A stretch of DNA of 44,961 nt from Candidatus Saccharimonadota bacterium (lineage in GTDB: Bacteria > Patescibacteriota > Saccharimonadia > Saccharimonadales > Saccharimonadaceae). The notes under the pieces were generated by a model. That model was not told the DNA's origin. It searched no databases and saw nothing but the letters and a program-made list of their open reading frames with translations. Positions within the stretch are counted from its first letter, which is position 1. Every line of letters starts with the position of its first letter. The stretch covers positions 1-44,961 of the forward strand of contig JAFSNI010000005.1 of NCBI GenBank assembly GCA_017447485.1. The letters are read 5' to 3'. The translations under genes and the position numbers were made by a program. Positions 21,511-29,015 of the stretch are shown one piece after another.

Positions 21511-24237
21511 ATGGCTAAAAAGAAAGTTGAAACTGCGAAAAAAACTTCTTCGAAAAAGACAACCCGAAGAAGTCGTAACACAAGATTTTTTAAAAAAGTT
21601 CAAGATTTTTTCAAAAATCATAAGGCTAGAAAAAAAGCTCGTCGCGAGGCCGAAGCTCGTCAGCATGCTGAAGACTTGGCTAAATTGCCAAAGGAGCCAG
21701 TTAAAAGATTTTTTGCTAGGCTTCATCCAAAACGGGTTTTTCATTGGTGGTTTTCATGGCGTGGTCAAAGAACTATTTTAAAAACGCTCGGCGTCCTATT
21801 CTTACTCATGGCGATAGGCATCGGCGGGCTATTTATTTATTACAAAAAAGATCTTGACGCGATTCGTCTTGACGAAATGAATATCTCCGAAACGGTAAAT
21901 ACATATCTCGACCGCAATGGTGTCGTGCTTTGGAAAGACACCGGAAACGATAATTATCGCCTCGTGGTTGATGCGGATGATATTTCCCCGTATATGTATC
22001 AGGCCACCATCGCGATTGAAGATCGTAATTTTTACAATCACATTGGCGTTGACCCAGCCGGCCTTATTCGCGCCGTCTTTTCGACTTTGTCTGGGCATGG
22101 CGTCCAGGGCGGTTCGACTTTGACTCAACAGCTTATCAAGCAGGTTTACTTTGCCGATGAGGCTCAAAGTGAAAATCGTGGTGGTCTCACGCGCAAGATT
22201 AAGGAGTTAATCCTCGCGATTGAACTTGAACGGATGTATTCTAAAGATCAGATTATTACCATGTATCTCAACCAGTCGCCTTACGGCGGTCGGCGTAATG
22301 GCGTGGAGTCTGCCGCCCAAACTTATTTTGGCAAATCCGCAAAAGATTTAACTTTAGCAGAGGCGGCTTTGCTCGCCGCAATTCCAAATAATCCGGCAGT
22401 GCTCAATCCATACAATGAATATGGTCACGAACAATTGATTTGGCGCCAGCAATACACTTTGGACGCAATGGTGGAAATGGGCTATATCACACAAGAAGAG
22501 GCTGATGCCGCTAAAGAAGTTGCTATTCTCGATACCATTAAGCCAGAGTCTAGCCAATATGCCGGTATGCTCGCTCCGCATTTTGTGCTCGAAGTGCGTT
22601 CGCAGCTTGAAGAAAAATATGGCATCTCGACTATGCGCGCTGGTGGCTGGACTATCACTACTACGCTCGACTACCGTGCCCAGCAAATTGCTGAAGACGC
22701 CGTCGCGGTAGGTAAGGGATATACCTATATTAATAAAAGTGACGATATTGCCCTAGTTTCAGTCGACGTTGAAACCTCGCAAGTAATCGCCATGGTCGGT
22801 TCAATCGACTTTTACAACACGACCTACGGCGAAGTTAACGTTACGACCGACTCTTTGATTGAACCAGGCTCTACCATTAAGCCAATCCTGGACTATTCCC
22901 CGCTCTTTATGCAGCGCGAAGGCATTAATTATGGCCCAGGTTCAATTTTGAAAGACGAAAACATTGATAAGCTTTATTGCGCCGGTTATACTGGCTCCTG
23001 TTCCATGTCTAATGCTACTGGCCAATTCTACGGCAACGTTACAATTCGCTTCTCACTAGGGCACTCGTTAAACATTGCCGCGGTTAAGGCACTATATATT
23101 AATGGCATAGATAATTCCCTTGAAATTGCGCACGCTCTTGGTGACACTAGCTTTTGCGAAAATCGCAGCTACTACGGCCTTTCAATCGCGATTGGCTCTG
23201 GTTGCGGCGTAAAAATGGTTGAACACGCTAACGCCTATGCTTCGCTTGCGCGTGGCGGGTCATATAAAGACATTTCCTACGTGCTTGAAGTTAAGAATTC
23301 CGCTGGCGACGTTATCGAATCTTGGACAGATTCTCCAGCTACGCGCGTCGTTGATGAGCAAGTTGCCTATATGATTTCAAGCATTTTGAGTGACCGCTCG
23401 GCGCGCTGGTTTAATAACGAAGGCTTCGTAGTCCCAGGAGTCTGGACTGCCACCAAAACTGGTACTACCACCACGTCCAACTCTGCCGTCACCAAAGATT
23501 CGTTGATGGAAAGCTACTCTACGGCAATCTCGACCCTAGTTTGGAACGGCAACCATGATGGCTCTGGTCTATCTTCTAACTCCAACAATGTCGTCCGCTA
23601 CACCATTGGTCATTATATGGAGCGGGTACATAAAGAGGTTTACGAACCTGAAGGCAAGTGGAGTTATGGTAGCCAACCAGTTAAACCGTCTGGGATTAAA
23701 ACTTTGACCGTCAATGGCCAGACTGACATTTGGCCAAGCTGGTTCAATGCAGAAAAGAACTCGGGCGTTTCAAAAGAGACCCTCGCCTTCAACCGCTATA
23801 CGCATACGCTCGCTAGCGACTGCACCCCAGAAGCCTATAAAATTGAAGTTGAAGTTACCAAAATTATCGACCCAGTGACTGGTAAGTCCGAATACACTGC
23901 ACCAGAACCGTATGACAGTGAAACCAGTGACACTTGCACTTACATTCCACCAGAAGTCTCCATCTCAACTAGTGGCGACAAAATCATTGCCACCATCAAA
24001 AAAGGCAGTGAAAAAATCTCTGGCTATACTCTTACTGTGGACGGCACTAATTACAATAACATCAGCGTCGCATCGGACGGCACCATCACTGGCTACACAT
24101 TGACCGGCGATGAAACCTCTCTCAAGTTCACCATCTCCGACGCCGCCGGATATACCGCCGTCTCAAACCTCACGCTCAAATCCTCTTCCGCTCAAAAATC
24201 TTCTAGTAGCTCTAGCTCAACTAAAACTACTAATTAG
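21511..24237 (+). CDS. Class A penicillin-binding protein (PBP1A-like)
   Basis: Bifunctional peptidoglycan glycosyltransferase/transpeptidase, 908 aa. It has a long, very basic cytoplasmic N-terminus (1-85), a transmembrane helix (about 90-110), a GT51 domain with catalytic Glu in IEDRNFYNHIG (E170), GSTLTQQLIK (201-210) and RKIKELILAIELE, then a transpeptidase domain with S454-x-x-K457 (GSTIKP), S519-L-N521 and K649-T-G. A C-terminal Ig-like module and a Ser-rich tail follow. Extended -10 lies 7 bases before the ATG. Partner of MurJ, transcribed divergently; its end overlaps the convergent PIN-TRAM gene by 4 bases. Confidence 0.96.
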   Translation: MAKKKVETAKKTSSKKTTRRSRNTRFFKKVQDFFKNHKARKKARREAEARQHAEDLAKLPKEPVKRFFARLHPKRVFHWWFSWRGQRTILKTLGVLFLLMAIGIGGLFIYYKKDLDAIRLDEMNISETVNTYLDRNGVVLWKDTGNDNYRLVVDADDISPYMYQATIAIEDRNFYNHIGVDPAGLIRAVFSTLSGHGVQGGSTLTQQLIKQVYFADEAQSENRGGLTRKIKELILAIELERMYSKDQIITMYLNQSPYGGRRNGVESAAQTYFGKSAKDLTLAEAALLAAIPNNPAVLNPYNEYGHEQLIWRQQYTLDAMVEMGYITQEEADAAKEVAILDTIKPESSQYAGMLAPHFVLEVRSQLEEKYGISTMRAGGWTITTTLDYRAQQIAEDAVAVGKGYTYINKSDDIALVSVDVETSQVIAMVGSIDFYNTTYGEVNVTTDSLIEPGSTIKPILDYSPLFMQREGINYGPGSILKDENIDKLYCAGYTGSCSMSNATGQFYGNVTIRFSLGHSLNIAAVKALYINGIDNSLEIAHALGDTSFCENRSYYGLSIAIGSGCGVKMVEHANAYASLARGGSYKDISYVLEVKNSAGDVIESWTDSPATRVVDEQVAYMISSILSDRSARWFNNEGFVVPGVWTATKTGTTTTSNSAVTKDSLMESYSTAISTLVWNGNHDGSGLSSNSNNVVRYTIGHYMERVHKEVYEPEGKWSYGSQPVKPSGIKTLTVNGQTDIWPSWFNAEKNSGVSKETLAFNRYTHTLASDCTPEAYKIEVEVTKIIDPVTGKSEYTAPEPYDSETSDTCTYIPPEVSISTSGDKIIATIKKGSEKISGYTLTVDGTNYNNISVASDGTITGYTLTGDETSLKFTISDAAGYTAVSNLTLKSSSAQKSSSSSSSTKTTN

Positions 24238-24926
24238 CGGCGACTAGGTTTAGCTAGTTTTGCGAAGATCATTTTGCCGGCAGGGGTTTCGTAGAACTTG
24301 ACAAACTCCACCATTACGTCGCGCCCTACTTTACTTGCTGCACCATCTACTACCACCATTGTTCCATCATTTAGGTGCCCAACACCTTGACCGCGCCCTG
24401 AACCCTTTTCCGAAATTTTAATCTTAATTCTCTCTCCCGGCAAAAACTCGCTTCTGGTAGCGAGAGCTAACTCATTGATGTTTAAAGCCTCAATTTTTTC
24501 CGCCTCCGCTACCTTAATCAAATTATAATCTAGCGTTAAAATTGCGCCTTTGTTTTCCCGAGCATATTTTAGCAGCGCCTCGTCGACTTTTTTAACTCCG
24601 CTTTCGTCGCTAACAACTTCAGTATTTATATTCACTACTCTTTCAAGTTCCGCCGCAACCGTTAGCCCAGCCCTTGCGCGCGTGCGTTTATCAGAATCTT
24701 TGCCATCCGCCAGGAGTTGTAATTCTAGAAGTACAGACCTCAAAATTATCAAGTCACCGTCCAAAAAACCGCTTTTTGCAACGTTTAAAATTCTCCCATC
24801 GATCAAGGCGGAAGTGTCAACGTAAATTTTACGTCGGTTACTAGACGTCAATTTGTATTTTCTAAAAACTAAAATCGTTGTTTCAGCTAGAATCGCTAAA
24901 GCCACTAACAAAATAAATAATTCCAT
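24234..24926 (-). CDS. PIN-TRAM domain protein (YacL-like)
   Basis: A 230-aa protein with an N-terminal membrane helix (1-20), a PIN nuclease domain starting KIYVDTSALIDGRI with acidic residues in VDTSALIDGR, LLELQ and LTLDYNLIKVAE, and a C-terminal TRAM domain (GERIKIKISEKGSGRGQGVGHLNDGTMVVVD region) that usually binds RNA. This is the layout of YacL/PilT-like proteins of Gram-positives, thought to act on RNA; the target is unknown. TGT-TATAAT lies 7 bases before its ATG. Confidence 0.9.
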   Translation of the reverse strand: MELFILLVALAILAETTILVFRKYKLTSSNRRKIYVDTSALIDGRILNVAKSGFLDGDLIILRSVLLELQLLADGKDSDKRTRARAGLTVAAELERVVNINTEVVSDESGVKKVDEALLKYARENKGAILTLDYNLIKVAEAEKIEALNINELALATRSEFLPGERIKIKISEKGSGRGQGVGHLNDGTMVVVDGAASKVGRDVMVEFVKFYETPAGKMIFAKLAKPSRR

Positions 24927-24949: not shown

Positions 24950-26119
24950 CTACTTTATCAAATCTTGTCCGTATTTAACGGCATATTTATGGTTATTTTC
25001 TAAAATATCGCGATATTTAAGTACTAATTTTTCGCGCCCCAAAACTTCTGCTACGTCTATCGCTAAATCATATCGCGACGCCGCATTCCGACGCAACATT
25101 TCAAATGGCGTCGTGGTAGAACCTTCCTCATTAAAACCGTGCACCCGTAGTCTCCGGCGTTCAGTGTAGTTTTCCAAGATGTTCTCTAGAGTTTCTGGAT
25201 AACCGTGAAAGTTAGCAATAATTGGGCACTTTTCAGTAAACAGCTCCACGAATTTTGTTTTGCTTAATTTATTTTCTGTCGTCCCGATTGCCCGATAAGA
25301 CAAAGCATTAACTCCTACGAACCTGAATTTTACATCCGGTAAATCTTCGCGCAAAATCTTAATTGCTTCTAAAGTTTCATGCGTCGGAATATCGCCCGCT
25401 GCCGTGAAAACAAAATCTGGATTTTCATCTGACGCAAACTGATAAATTGAGGCGCCGCCGTTATCAAACAAGAATTTTGCATGGTGTGAATCAATATACC
25501 GAGGCTCAGAGGTTTTGTTAAATGTTGTAAGATTTACAACATTTCTCGAACTTAACATAAAGTTAAATGCTTCTTCTGCTGCCACGTCATCAACCGGAAA
25601 AATACAGTTAGCGAGGTTCGATGGTAAAGCGAGTAACTGCGAGATCAAAGCCGGTGATTGGTGCGTAAAGCCATTATGGTCTTGTCGCCAGCAAGTTGAA
25701 GTAGAAAGTAAATTGACTGCCGGCATATCCGCGCGCCACGACACAGTTTTTGATTGCTTTATGAACTTAATTTGTTGCAGAAGTTGCGCCGTAATAATCG
25801 GGAAAAAGGCTTCGTAACTCCCCATCATGGCTTGCTCGCCATTCATCAAGTGCCCAGTCATCACCGAAAATAACACATTCTCCGAGAGCATTTCAATAAT
25901 GCGACCATCTGGCCCTTCTGGCAAATCTCCGTCAAGAATCGGTAAACTCCAAGCCCGTTTTTCAACCTCAAATAGCTCGTCGAACTTGTTAGAAGTAGTC
26001 TCATCTGGTGAAAAGAAATAAAAATACGGGTCATTTTTCATTTCCGCCTTTAAAAGCTCCCCGATTCTTCTAGCCGGAGAATAATATTCCGCGCCTGGTC
26101 TCTCTACTCGCTCAATCAT
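24950..26119 (-). CDS. xfp: Phosphoketolase, C-terminal part
   Basis: A 389-aa protein equal to the XFP central and C-terminal domains of xylulose-5-P/fructose-6-P phosphoketolase. Visible: FFSPDETTSN (36-44), RIIEMLSEN (73-81), GSYEAFFPI (100-108), SWRADMPAVN, CWRQDHNGFTHQSP (143-156, with the catalytic-region histidines), FTAAGDIPTHETLEAI, FHGYPETLEN and EEGSTTTPFEMLRRN. Compared with usual enzymes SEH reads SEN and TGRHG reads NGEQA, so some active-site positions have changed. ATGA overlap with the N-part (26116-26119). The two products together are needed to make acetyl-phosphate and a triose- or tetrose-phosphate. Confidence 0.92.
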   Translation of the reverse strand: MIERVERPGAEYYSPARRIGELLKAEMKNDPYFYFFSPDETTSNKFDELFEVEKRAWSLPILDGDLPEGPDGRIIEMLSENVLFSVMTGHLMNGEQAMMGSYEAFFPIITAQLLQQIKFIKQSKTVSWRADMPAVNLLSTSTCWRQDHNGFTHQSPALISQLLALPSNLANCIFPVDDVAAEEAFNFMLSSRNVVNLTTFNKTSEPRYIDSHHAKFLFDNGGASIYQFASDENPDFVFTAAGDIPTHETLEAIKILREDLPDVKFRFVGVNALSYRAIGTTENKLSKTKFVELFTEKCPIIANFHGYPETLENILENYTERRRLRVHGFNEEGSTTTPFEMLRRNAASRYDLAIDVAEVLGREKLVLKYRDILENNHKYAVKYGQDLIK

Positions 26120-27048
26120 AGCGTAAACCCCGCCTCTTTATTGAATAACTCTTCAAAATGATATGATTTTAGCCACTCTTCAAGCTTTTTCAATTCTTCA
26201 TAATTGCTCGCGGGATTCTTAAGCGGAATTTGGTGCGCTAGGTGTCCACGATTCGGGCCACTCTCACCTTTTTCTGTCTTTAAAATATAAAATGGCGAAT
26301 CGACTTTTTTACCCAGAGCTTCTTGAAAATCTTCCGGGTCATTTCCACGAATCCACATTGGCGCAAAGCCAAATCCACGAATCATTTCATTCAATTCCCG
26401 TTCCGATTTTCGTGCATAAATCGAGGGCGCGGAAATTTTATAACCATTCAAATGTAAAAACGGCAAGACTTTACCATTCCGGTCGCCAGTTAGTAAATTC
26501 CTCAAATTTAATGAATCCAGCGCTGTCGCCGTCTCGAGTTCACCATCGCCAATTAAAACCGCTAAAGTTTTTTCTGGATGCCCCAAAGCCAGTCCATAAG
26601 CATTTGCCAGCGCGTAACCCAGCTCGCCACCTTCCGCGATAATCCCTGGGGTCATGGGACTAGCATGGCTCGGAAAACCATCCGGCCAAGAAAAGTTATG
26701 GCAGACATATTTTATTCCATAATAATCTGGCGAGGCTTTTTCATCAACTTCTGCAAGCTTACCGTCAATTAAAAGATTCGCATTCAGTGCTGGAAAACCA
26801 TGCCCGGGCCCCAGCACAAAAAGAAAATCCGGGTCATTTTTATAAACAGCGTGCAAGTTTGCGTAAGCTACATTAATCCCGTTACATGTTCCCCAATGTC
26901 CTAAAAGTCGAGGTTTAATGTCGTCAAATTGCAATGGTCTTTCTAGTAAAAAATTATCACGTAAATAAAGTTGAGCCACAGACAAATAATTGCACGCCCG
27001 AATTCGTCGTGAAATTTTCGCAATTTCATCAGTGCCCACACTGCTCAT
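26116..27048 (-). CDS. xfp: Phosphoketolase, N-terminal (ThDP-binding) part
   Basis: A 310-aa protein equal to the XFP_N domain. Motifs: LLGHWGTCNGINV (48-60), VLGPGHGFPALNAN (78-91), GFPSHASPMTPG (124-135), EGGELGYAL (139-147), the ThDP/Mg GDGELET (167-173) and LHLNGYKISAPS (198-209). A normal phosphoketolase is one chain of about 790-825 aa; here the two genes total 699 aa and the linker that normally carries RMGANPHANGG is absent. Extended -10 lies 6 bases before the ATG, so translation is probably leaderless. Confidence 0.93.
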   Translation of the reverse strand: MSSVGTDEIAKISRRIRACNYLSVAQLYLRDNFLLERPLQFDDIKPRLLGHWGTCNGINVAYANLHAVYKNDPDFLFVLGPGHGFPALNANLLIDGKLAEVDEKASPDYYGIKYVCHNFSWPDGFPSHASPMTPGIIAEGGELGYALANAYGLALGHPEKTLAVLIGDGELETATALDSLNLRNLLTGDRNGKVLPFLHLNGYKISAPSIYARKSERELNEMIRGFGFAPMWIRGNDPEDFQEALGKKVDSPFYILKTEKGESGPNRGHLAHQIPLKNPASNYEELKKLEEWLKSYHFEELFNKEAGFTL

Positions 27049-27050
27049 GC

Positions 27051-29015
27051 TTATATTATATCACGAATCTTTGCAATTTCATCCCGAAGTAATGCTGCCC
27101 GTTCAAAATCTAGGTTTGCTGCCGCAAGCTGCATTTCGGACGACAAAGATTTTATTAGATTTGACAGTTCGTCTTTCGGGATTTTTTTAATATCTAACTT
27201 ATTTTCAACTTGTTTTTCCGGAATAATCGCCCTTAGTCCCGCTGAAATCTCTTTCTTAATCGAAGTCGGCGTGATATTGTGCTCAAAATTATATTGTTTC
27301 TGGATTTCGCGTCGCCGGTTTGTCTCTGAAATCGCTTTTTCCATACTTTCAGTGATGAAATTCGCATACATAATCACTTTTCCTTCTACGTGCCGCGCCG
27401 CCCGCCCAATCGTCTGAATTAAAGCCGACTCGCTACGCAAAAATCCTTCCTTGTCAGCATCTAAAATTGCCACTAGCGAAACTTCCGGTAGGTCTAACCC
27501 TTCGCGGAGCAGATTAATTCCTACAAGCACGTCATAAACTCCTTCGCGCAAGTCTCTCAAAATATCGCCCCGTTCCAAAGTGTCAATTTCAGAATGAATG
27601 TAAGCCGTTTTTATGCCCCGCTCTTTCAGGTGATCGGTCAAATCTTCTGCCATTCGCTTTGTTAAAGTTGTAATCAAAGTTCTTTGTCCCTTTGCGATGC
27701 GCTGATCAATTTCTTCCATCAAATCGTCGACCTGCCCGTCGCTGCTCCGAACTTCAATTTCCGGGTCTAAAAGTCCCGTCGGACGAATCACTTGCTCGGC
27801 CGGCTTCGGCGAATGTTCAAGTTCGTATTCTCCCGGCGTTGCCGAAACATAAATCGCCTGATTCACTCGCGCCTGGAACTCTCCGAACGTCAACGGTCGG
27901 TTATCAAGAGCGCTAGGCAACCGAAAACCATAGTCCACCAGCGCTAACTTCCGCGCGTGGTCACCATTATACATCCCGCGGACCTGTGGTAATGTCATAT
28001 GTGATTCATCCACAATCAACAAAAAATCTTTTGGGAAAAAGTCGAGTAGGGTAGCCGGCGGCTCACCAGCTTTGCGCCCATCAAGATGCCGCGAATAATT
28101 TTCAATGCCCTTCACAAATCCGGTGCTAGCTAACATTTCGAGATCATATTTTGTGCGTTGCGATAATCTCTCCGCTTCTAGATATTTTTCATGTTCCTTA
28201 AAATATGCCAACCTCTCATTAAACTCGGCGCGAATTGTCTCAAGTGCTTTTTCGAGTTGGTCTTTTGGTGTAGCGTAATGCGTATTTGGAAAAATATGCA
28301 CTTTCTCAGGCTTTTCCAAAACCTCAAAAGTTAGTGGGTCAACGATTTTTATATCTTCTAGCGTATCAAAACCAAATTCAAATCTGTAAGCGTGCTCGCC
28401 ATTTGCTGGGTAGAGATCAACCGTATCGCCCATCACGCGAAAGTTCCCTCGTTCAAACGCCAAGTCATTCCGATGGTATTGAATCGAGATTAACTTCTTT
28501 ATAAAGTCAGTTTGCGAAAATAAATCGTTTTTAGACACTTCAAATGACATTTCAAGATAATGCTCTGGCGAGCCGATCCCATAAATGCACGAAACCGACG
28601 CAATCACAATCACGTCGCGTCGCGTAAGTAGTGCTTCGGTTGCGCCGTGTCGCAAACGGTCGATCTCGTCATTTATAGCCGAATCCTTTTCAATATAAGT
28701 GTCGGTTGAAGCAATATAAGCTTCTGGCTGGTAGTAATCAAAGTAAGAAACGAAATAATGCACCTCATTTTCTGGAAAGAACTCGCGAAACTCAGCATAG
28801 AGTTGTGCCGCTAAAGTTTTATTATGCGCTAAAATCAAAGTCGGGCGCTGGACATTCTGGATAATATTTGCCATCGTGAAAGTTTTGCCAGAACCAGTCA
28901 CCCCGAGCAGAGTTTGCTCTCTCGCCCCCGCCAAAACACCATCCGTGAGCTGTTTAATTGCTCCAGGCTGATCGCCGGTCGGCTGATATTTTGACACCAG
29001 TTTAAAATTAGGCAT
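27051..29015 (-). CDS. uvrB: Excinuclease ABC subunit B
   Basis: Damage-verifying helicase-like subunit of nucleotide excision repair, 654 aa, full length. Walker [11 protein letters not shown] (near residue 40), the damage-probing beta-hairpin region ([18 protein letters not shown]), DESH Walker B in [13 protein letters not shown], the [18 protein letters not shown] motif VI, and the C-terminal UVR domain ([14 protein letters not shown]) that binds UvrC. The UvrC partner in this window (42.4 kb) is shortened. The ATG lies 6 bases after TGG-TATAAT. Confidence 0.97.
27055..27060 (-). promoter_or_regulatory. Phosphoketolase operon -10 box (leaderless)
   Basis: Minus-strand TGA-TATAAT, 6 bases before the ATG, overlapping the 3' end of uvrB. 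Confidence 0.7.

Follow-up and report, generated by a model that had tools for sequence, protein, structure and literature searches.

The window, which comprises the whole 44,961-nt stretch analyzed here (contig JAFSNI010000005.1 of a Candidatus Saccharimonadota bacterium), carries two overlapping genes, pkN and pkC, that divide between them the domains of a phosphoketolase (PK) (Table 1). pkN matches the Pfam family XFP_N (7e-83), and pkC matches XFP (1e-46) and XFP_C (2.5e-44). The order XFP_N, XFP, XFP_C is thus retained, spread over two chains rather than one, and this is the one XFP_N locus in the genome of the window, an assembly that is 87% complete. A sequence-only reading had already described the pair, and its coordinates, lengths, and motifs were all as stated when rechecked, as were the ATGA junction and the stop that lies six codons upstream of the pkC ATG. 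The pkC frame opens 22 nt ahead of the end of the pkN stop codon. The Shine-Dalgarno (SD)-like sequence upstream of the pkC start, GAGGCGGGG, pairs with the anti-SD with a duplex energy of -7.3 kcal/mol. The uvrB-like gene lies upstream of the PK genes on the same strand at 64 of 76 loci and is probably on one transcript with pkN and pkC, and the PIN-domain-like gene lies downstream, also on the same strand, at 68 of 76.

Table 1. Features of the split phosphoketolase locus (positions within the window)
Feature	Position	Strand	Length	Remarks
pkN, phosphoketolase N subunit (PP domain, XFP_N)	26116..27048	-	310 aa	
pkC, phosphoketolase C subunit (Pyr domain XFP and C-terminal domain XFP_C)	24950..26119	-	389 aa	
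ATGA stop/start overlap of pkN and pkC	26116..26119	-		Basis: sequence
Shine-Dalgarno-like GAGGCGGGG	26128..26136	-		Within pkN 3' end, upstream of pkC start
uvrB-like upstream neighbor	27051..29015	-		2-nt gap; named by sequence reading
PIN-domain-like downstream gene	24234..24926	-		Named by sequence reading

How widespread is this arrangement? In a scan of named genomes, 80 relatives of pkC (64 to 86% identical) were all titled Saccharibacteria, and many came from ruminant digestive tracts. The set of split loci assembled for analysis numbers 106, of which 102 are distinct, and it includes loci from genomes of the window's family. The split PK occurs in about a hundred genomes of tiny gut and rumen bacteria, which belong to five related genera within a single Saccharibacteria family. 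Within the window's genus, the N half is present in every genome listed by an order-level search, and the N frame is short in all of them except G346, the source of locus L158, which is identical to L047 (discussed below). Outside the family, no comparable short N frame was found in 295 order-level and 380 phylum-level genomes, save for one match at a contig end.

The junction between the two genes varies from locus to locus. The sequence-only reading had proposed searching relatives for the same ATGA split, and a pkC start at -4 relative to the end of the pkN stop is indeed the commonest geometry, occurring at 67 of the 102 distinct loci (as GTGA in two). Starts at -8 and -11 account for 12 loci each and those at -23 for four, with rare offsets of -16, -7, +4, +14, and +37 nt; the two +4 starts are possibly misassigned, since an ATG at -20 is equally suitable. 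Both non-zero frames of pkC relative to pkN are used (71 versus 31 loci). The mean anti-SD pairing energy before the 102 pkC starts is -7.3 kcal/mol, compared with -2.2 kcal/mol for 1,588 control ATGs inside pkN (p 1e-44). Purifying selection is evident as well: among pairs with usable dS, most dN/dS values are about 0.02 to 0.05 for pkN and pkC alike, and a few reach about 0.14.

These observations bear on two ways in which the split might be illusory. The first is that an ordinary PK gene was broken in the window, either by a mistake in sequencing or assembly or by a one-base frameshift that left a pseudogene. The window is, after all, a single contig of a draft genome, in which single-base errors are able to break a frame. 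Chance or assembly error is excluded, however, because the same split occurs in 102 distinct loci, with differing junctions and in independent assemblies. In addition, an SD sequence precedes most pkC starts, dN/dS is far below 1, and there is no linker left for a frame repair to rebuild, so this explanation is hardly credible. The second is programmed ribosomal frameshifting that joins both frames into one chain. The frames of pkN and pkC do overlap, but both relative frames exist, the genes are separated by +14 or +37 nt at some loci, SD sequences lie ahead of the pkC start, and a classic -1 heptamer is found close to the junction in only 2 of the 102 loci; we regard frameshifting as very improbable. 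The varied offsets, the use of both frames, the SD sequences, and the low dN/dS therefore remove error, decay, and frameshifting as general explanations. PK as two overlapping genes, the central claim of the sequence-only reading, is borne out by a single clade with its own SD sequences, varied overlaps, purifying selection, and conserved catalytic residues.

What became of the piece that normally joins the two halves? Known XFP members are single polypeptides of about 780 to 830 aa with a linker between the PP and Pyr domains, whereas the window has two open reading frames and no linker. In single-chain relatives the linker is about 69 residues long, and its RMGxN motif is found in 47 of 51. 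The motif is present in 0 of 106 split copies, in agreement with the missing linker noted from the window sequence, and in none of the four fused sequences of the split clade, which carry unrelated filler instead. PK trees of 107 rows and, in a more careful version, 36 rows unite all split copies and five fused rows, which represent four distinct sequences, in a clade supported at 100/100 and nested among single-chain Saccharibacteria PKs. The possibility that each genus split its PK independently was considered and rejected, as the trees put all splits into that one clade. Judging from the sequences, the split pair derives from a single-chain PK that was cut at the PP-Pyr boundary and lost its linker.

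The split is old, and at least once it has been reversed. At L047/L158, the PK frames are joined into a 725-aa open reading frame by an 84-bp palindrome (L047:5893-5976) with a predicted folding energy of -42.6 kcal/mol, of which three diverged copies (74 to 82%) lie elsewhere in genome G346. With its deep position among the split copies and an inserted palindromic repeat bridging the frames, this PK is clearly a secondary re-fusion. The sequence-only reading had set an intact single gene in a close relative against a genuine split; formally one exists, L047/L158, yet being a secondary re-fusion it does not refute the split. The three other fused relatives look re-fused too. For genus g9, a tree grouping the split copies minus g9 (L047 included) was not rejected by the AU test (p 0.097), so re-fusion there is likely, though short of proven. 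Weakly similar palindromes (E 0.09) also occur downstream of the PK genes in two further genomes of the group, at L063:7887-7969 and L071:7175-7249, and possibly represent a mobile or terminator-like repeat family.

Structure prediction agrees with the domain assignments. For AlphaFold, three rows from plasmid records were left out of the alignment. Modeled alone (AF2), pkN takes the form of a PK PP domain (pLDDT 84.7), matching that domain in solved phosphoketolases with a TMq of 0.87 to 0.91. For L047, the natural fusion, the model shows the whole PK fold (pLDDT 90), with the filler linker disordered at the junction. This model aligns with PKs at Z scores of 46 to 48 (rmsd 2.0 to 2.3 over about 704 to 714 residues), compared with 33.4 or less for PDH E1 and transketolases. 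PDB sequence matches of both halves at E <= 1e-3 are exclusively phosphoketolases. The best solved relative is a Candidatus Saccharibacterium PK of 799 aa (PDB 9cd3/9cd4; 1.8e-85 and 4.4e-87 to the halves), a thiamine-diphosphate (ThDP) enzyme that shares the domains and the LSEN and SNK motifs of the window pair but is one chain and reads TGRYG where the window reads NGEQA. The X5P/F6P phosphoketolase of Bifidobacterium (3ahc, 3ai7, 6lxv) shares the fold (the re-fused relative aligns with it at a Z score of about 48) and has all the listed active-site residues in common with the split copies; it differs in being one chain of about 825 aa that forms a homodimer (PMC5315409).

Is the split enzyme likely to be catalytically intact? 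A published model of the PK active site comprises 13 residues (PMC10547157). In all 106 split copies, pkN keeps the equivalents of H64, H97, H142, G155, H320, and Q321, and pkC those of S440, E479, Y501, Q546, H548, N549, and H553; the equivalents of K300 and K605 are invariant as well. The window pair was earlier suspected of altered catalysis because it reads LSEN and NGEQA in place of LSEH and TGRHG, a suspicion that now looks weak. The equivalent of H480 is N in all split copies. Since N also occupies this position in the solved PK 9cd3 and in 5 of the 6 closest single-chain relatives, LSEN is older than the split. The change of TGRHG to NGEQA is a trait of the window's genus and affects 0 of the 13 published active-site residues. 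At positions 492 to 494, single-chain PKs have TGR, as do the split copies of g9, g12, and g59; those of g11 have SGG, and those of the window's genus mostly NGE. This distribution places the change from TGR to NGE after the split. The split clade also has a shortened PP-domain loop. The Pyr-domain change and the shorter loop could affect activity or substrate. One alternative is that the two chains assemble into an enzyme of different activity, which uses another ketose or sugar phosphate or acts as a ThDP lyase other than phosphoketolase. The series TGR, SGG, NGE within the split clade and the shortened loop speak for it, while the invariance of all 13 modeled catalytic residues and of the two lysines, along with the retention of acetate kinase in the genus, speaks against it, and we consider it unlikely.

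By sequence, predicted fold, and residues, then, pkN and pkC are assigned as a phosphoketolase, yet one in two chains. As read from the sequences, the pair has complete domains, separate start signals, purifying selection, and every listed active-site residue. It is highly likely, from sequence, modeling, and analogy, that the products are two subunits of one ThDP phosphoketolase, predicted to be alpha2beta2. How might such an enzyme be made? Ribosomes ending pkN would re-initiate at the overlapping pkC ATG, helped by the SD sequence, and this coupled translation would yield roughly equal amounts of the two chains. The PKs described so far form homodimers whose active site is at the subunit interface (PMC5315409), and this site draws on residues of both halves; by analogy, two N and two C chains would assemble in the same manner. 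A precedent is provided by split-gene transketolase, whose lone subunits are inactive and which is active as an alpha2beta2 heterotetramer (PMC7661550). It has the same cut between PP and Pyr plus C-terminal domains and the same missing linker, although its N subunit is only about 17% identical to pkN and it is a transketolase, not a PK. The single-chain form and its linker are an architectural trait of known XFP members rather than a catalytic requirement.

The N2C2 complex would convert xylulose-5-phosphate (perhaps also fructose-6-phosphate) and phosphate to acetyl phosphate, from which acetate kinase would generate ATP. The gene content of the window's genus fits such a role. Acetate kinase is encoded in 41 of 45 genomes and ribulose-phosphate 3-epimerase in 44 of 45. 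Transketolase_N (PF00456) had no match in G000 or 44 further genomes of the genus, and 6-phosphofructokinase and 6-phosphogluconate dehydrogenase were each found in 0 of 45. Because the genus is without these three enzymes, PK is probably its main sugar-phosphate-cleaving step, and with acetate kinase and the epimerase also kept, PK and acetate kinase together probably yield ATP from pentose phosphates. The same role has been proposed in another Saccharibacterium, where PK adjoins acetate kinase (PMC6031116).

Why does a divided PK matter? In all solved structures found, PK is a single chain, and no earlier description of a split phosphoketolase or of PK gene fission was found in the literature searched, which did not extend to subscription papers. 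The split adds a naturally divided form, with its break at the joint also used in split transketolase, to an enzyme employed in metabolic engineering. With closely related split, re-fused, and original single-chain PKs at hand, fission and fusion can be tested directly in an enzyme of central metabolism. A more ambitious and rather doubtful proposal is that this is the first two-subunit PK lineage, in which a single fission and linker loss freed the PP-Pyr interface, followed by TGRHG to NGE, a shifted substrate or regulation, and natural re-fusions. If true, the re-fusions would provide one-chain counterparts to match the two-chain forms of this enzyme.

Some further observations concern the surrounding metabolism. 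Acetate kinase in the window's genus falls into two score classes, with E near 1e-150 in G000 (C10:25622-26788) and eight others and from 1e-72 to 1e-89 in most of the remaining genomes, a pattern that would fit replacement of the gene in some lineages. Across the window's GTDB family, Transketolase_N matches occur in 107 of 151 genomes, almost all in open frames of about 270 to 320 aa; read from these N halves, transketolases of the family seem as a rule to be encoded by split genes. Transketolase is absent from the genomes listed for the split-PK clade and from most of the nearest single-chain PK relatives (g2, g10, g25, g30, g40), and its loss may have preceded the PK split. Lastly, a PK from plasmid II of Legionella fallonii (L151) falls on the Saccharibacteria side of the tree, with about 40% identity to pkC. 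Its gene is located after those for thymidine phosphorylase and ribose-phosphate pyrophosphokinase, an order that suggests the use of pentoses from nucleosides.
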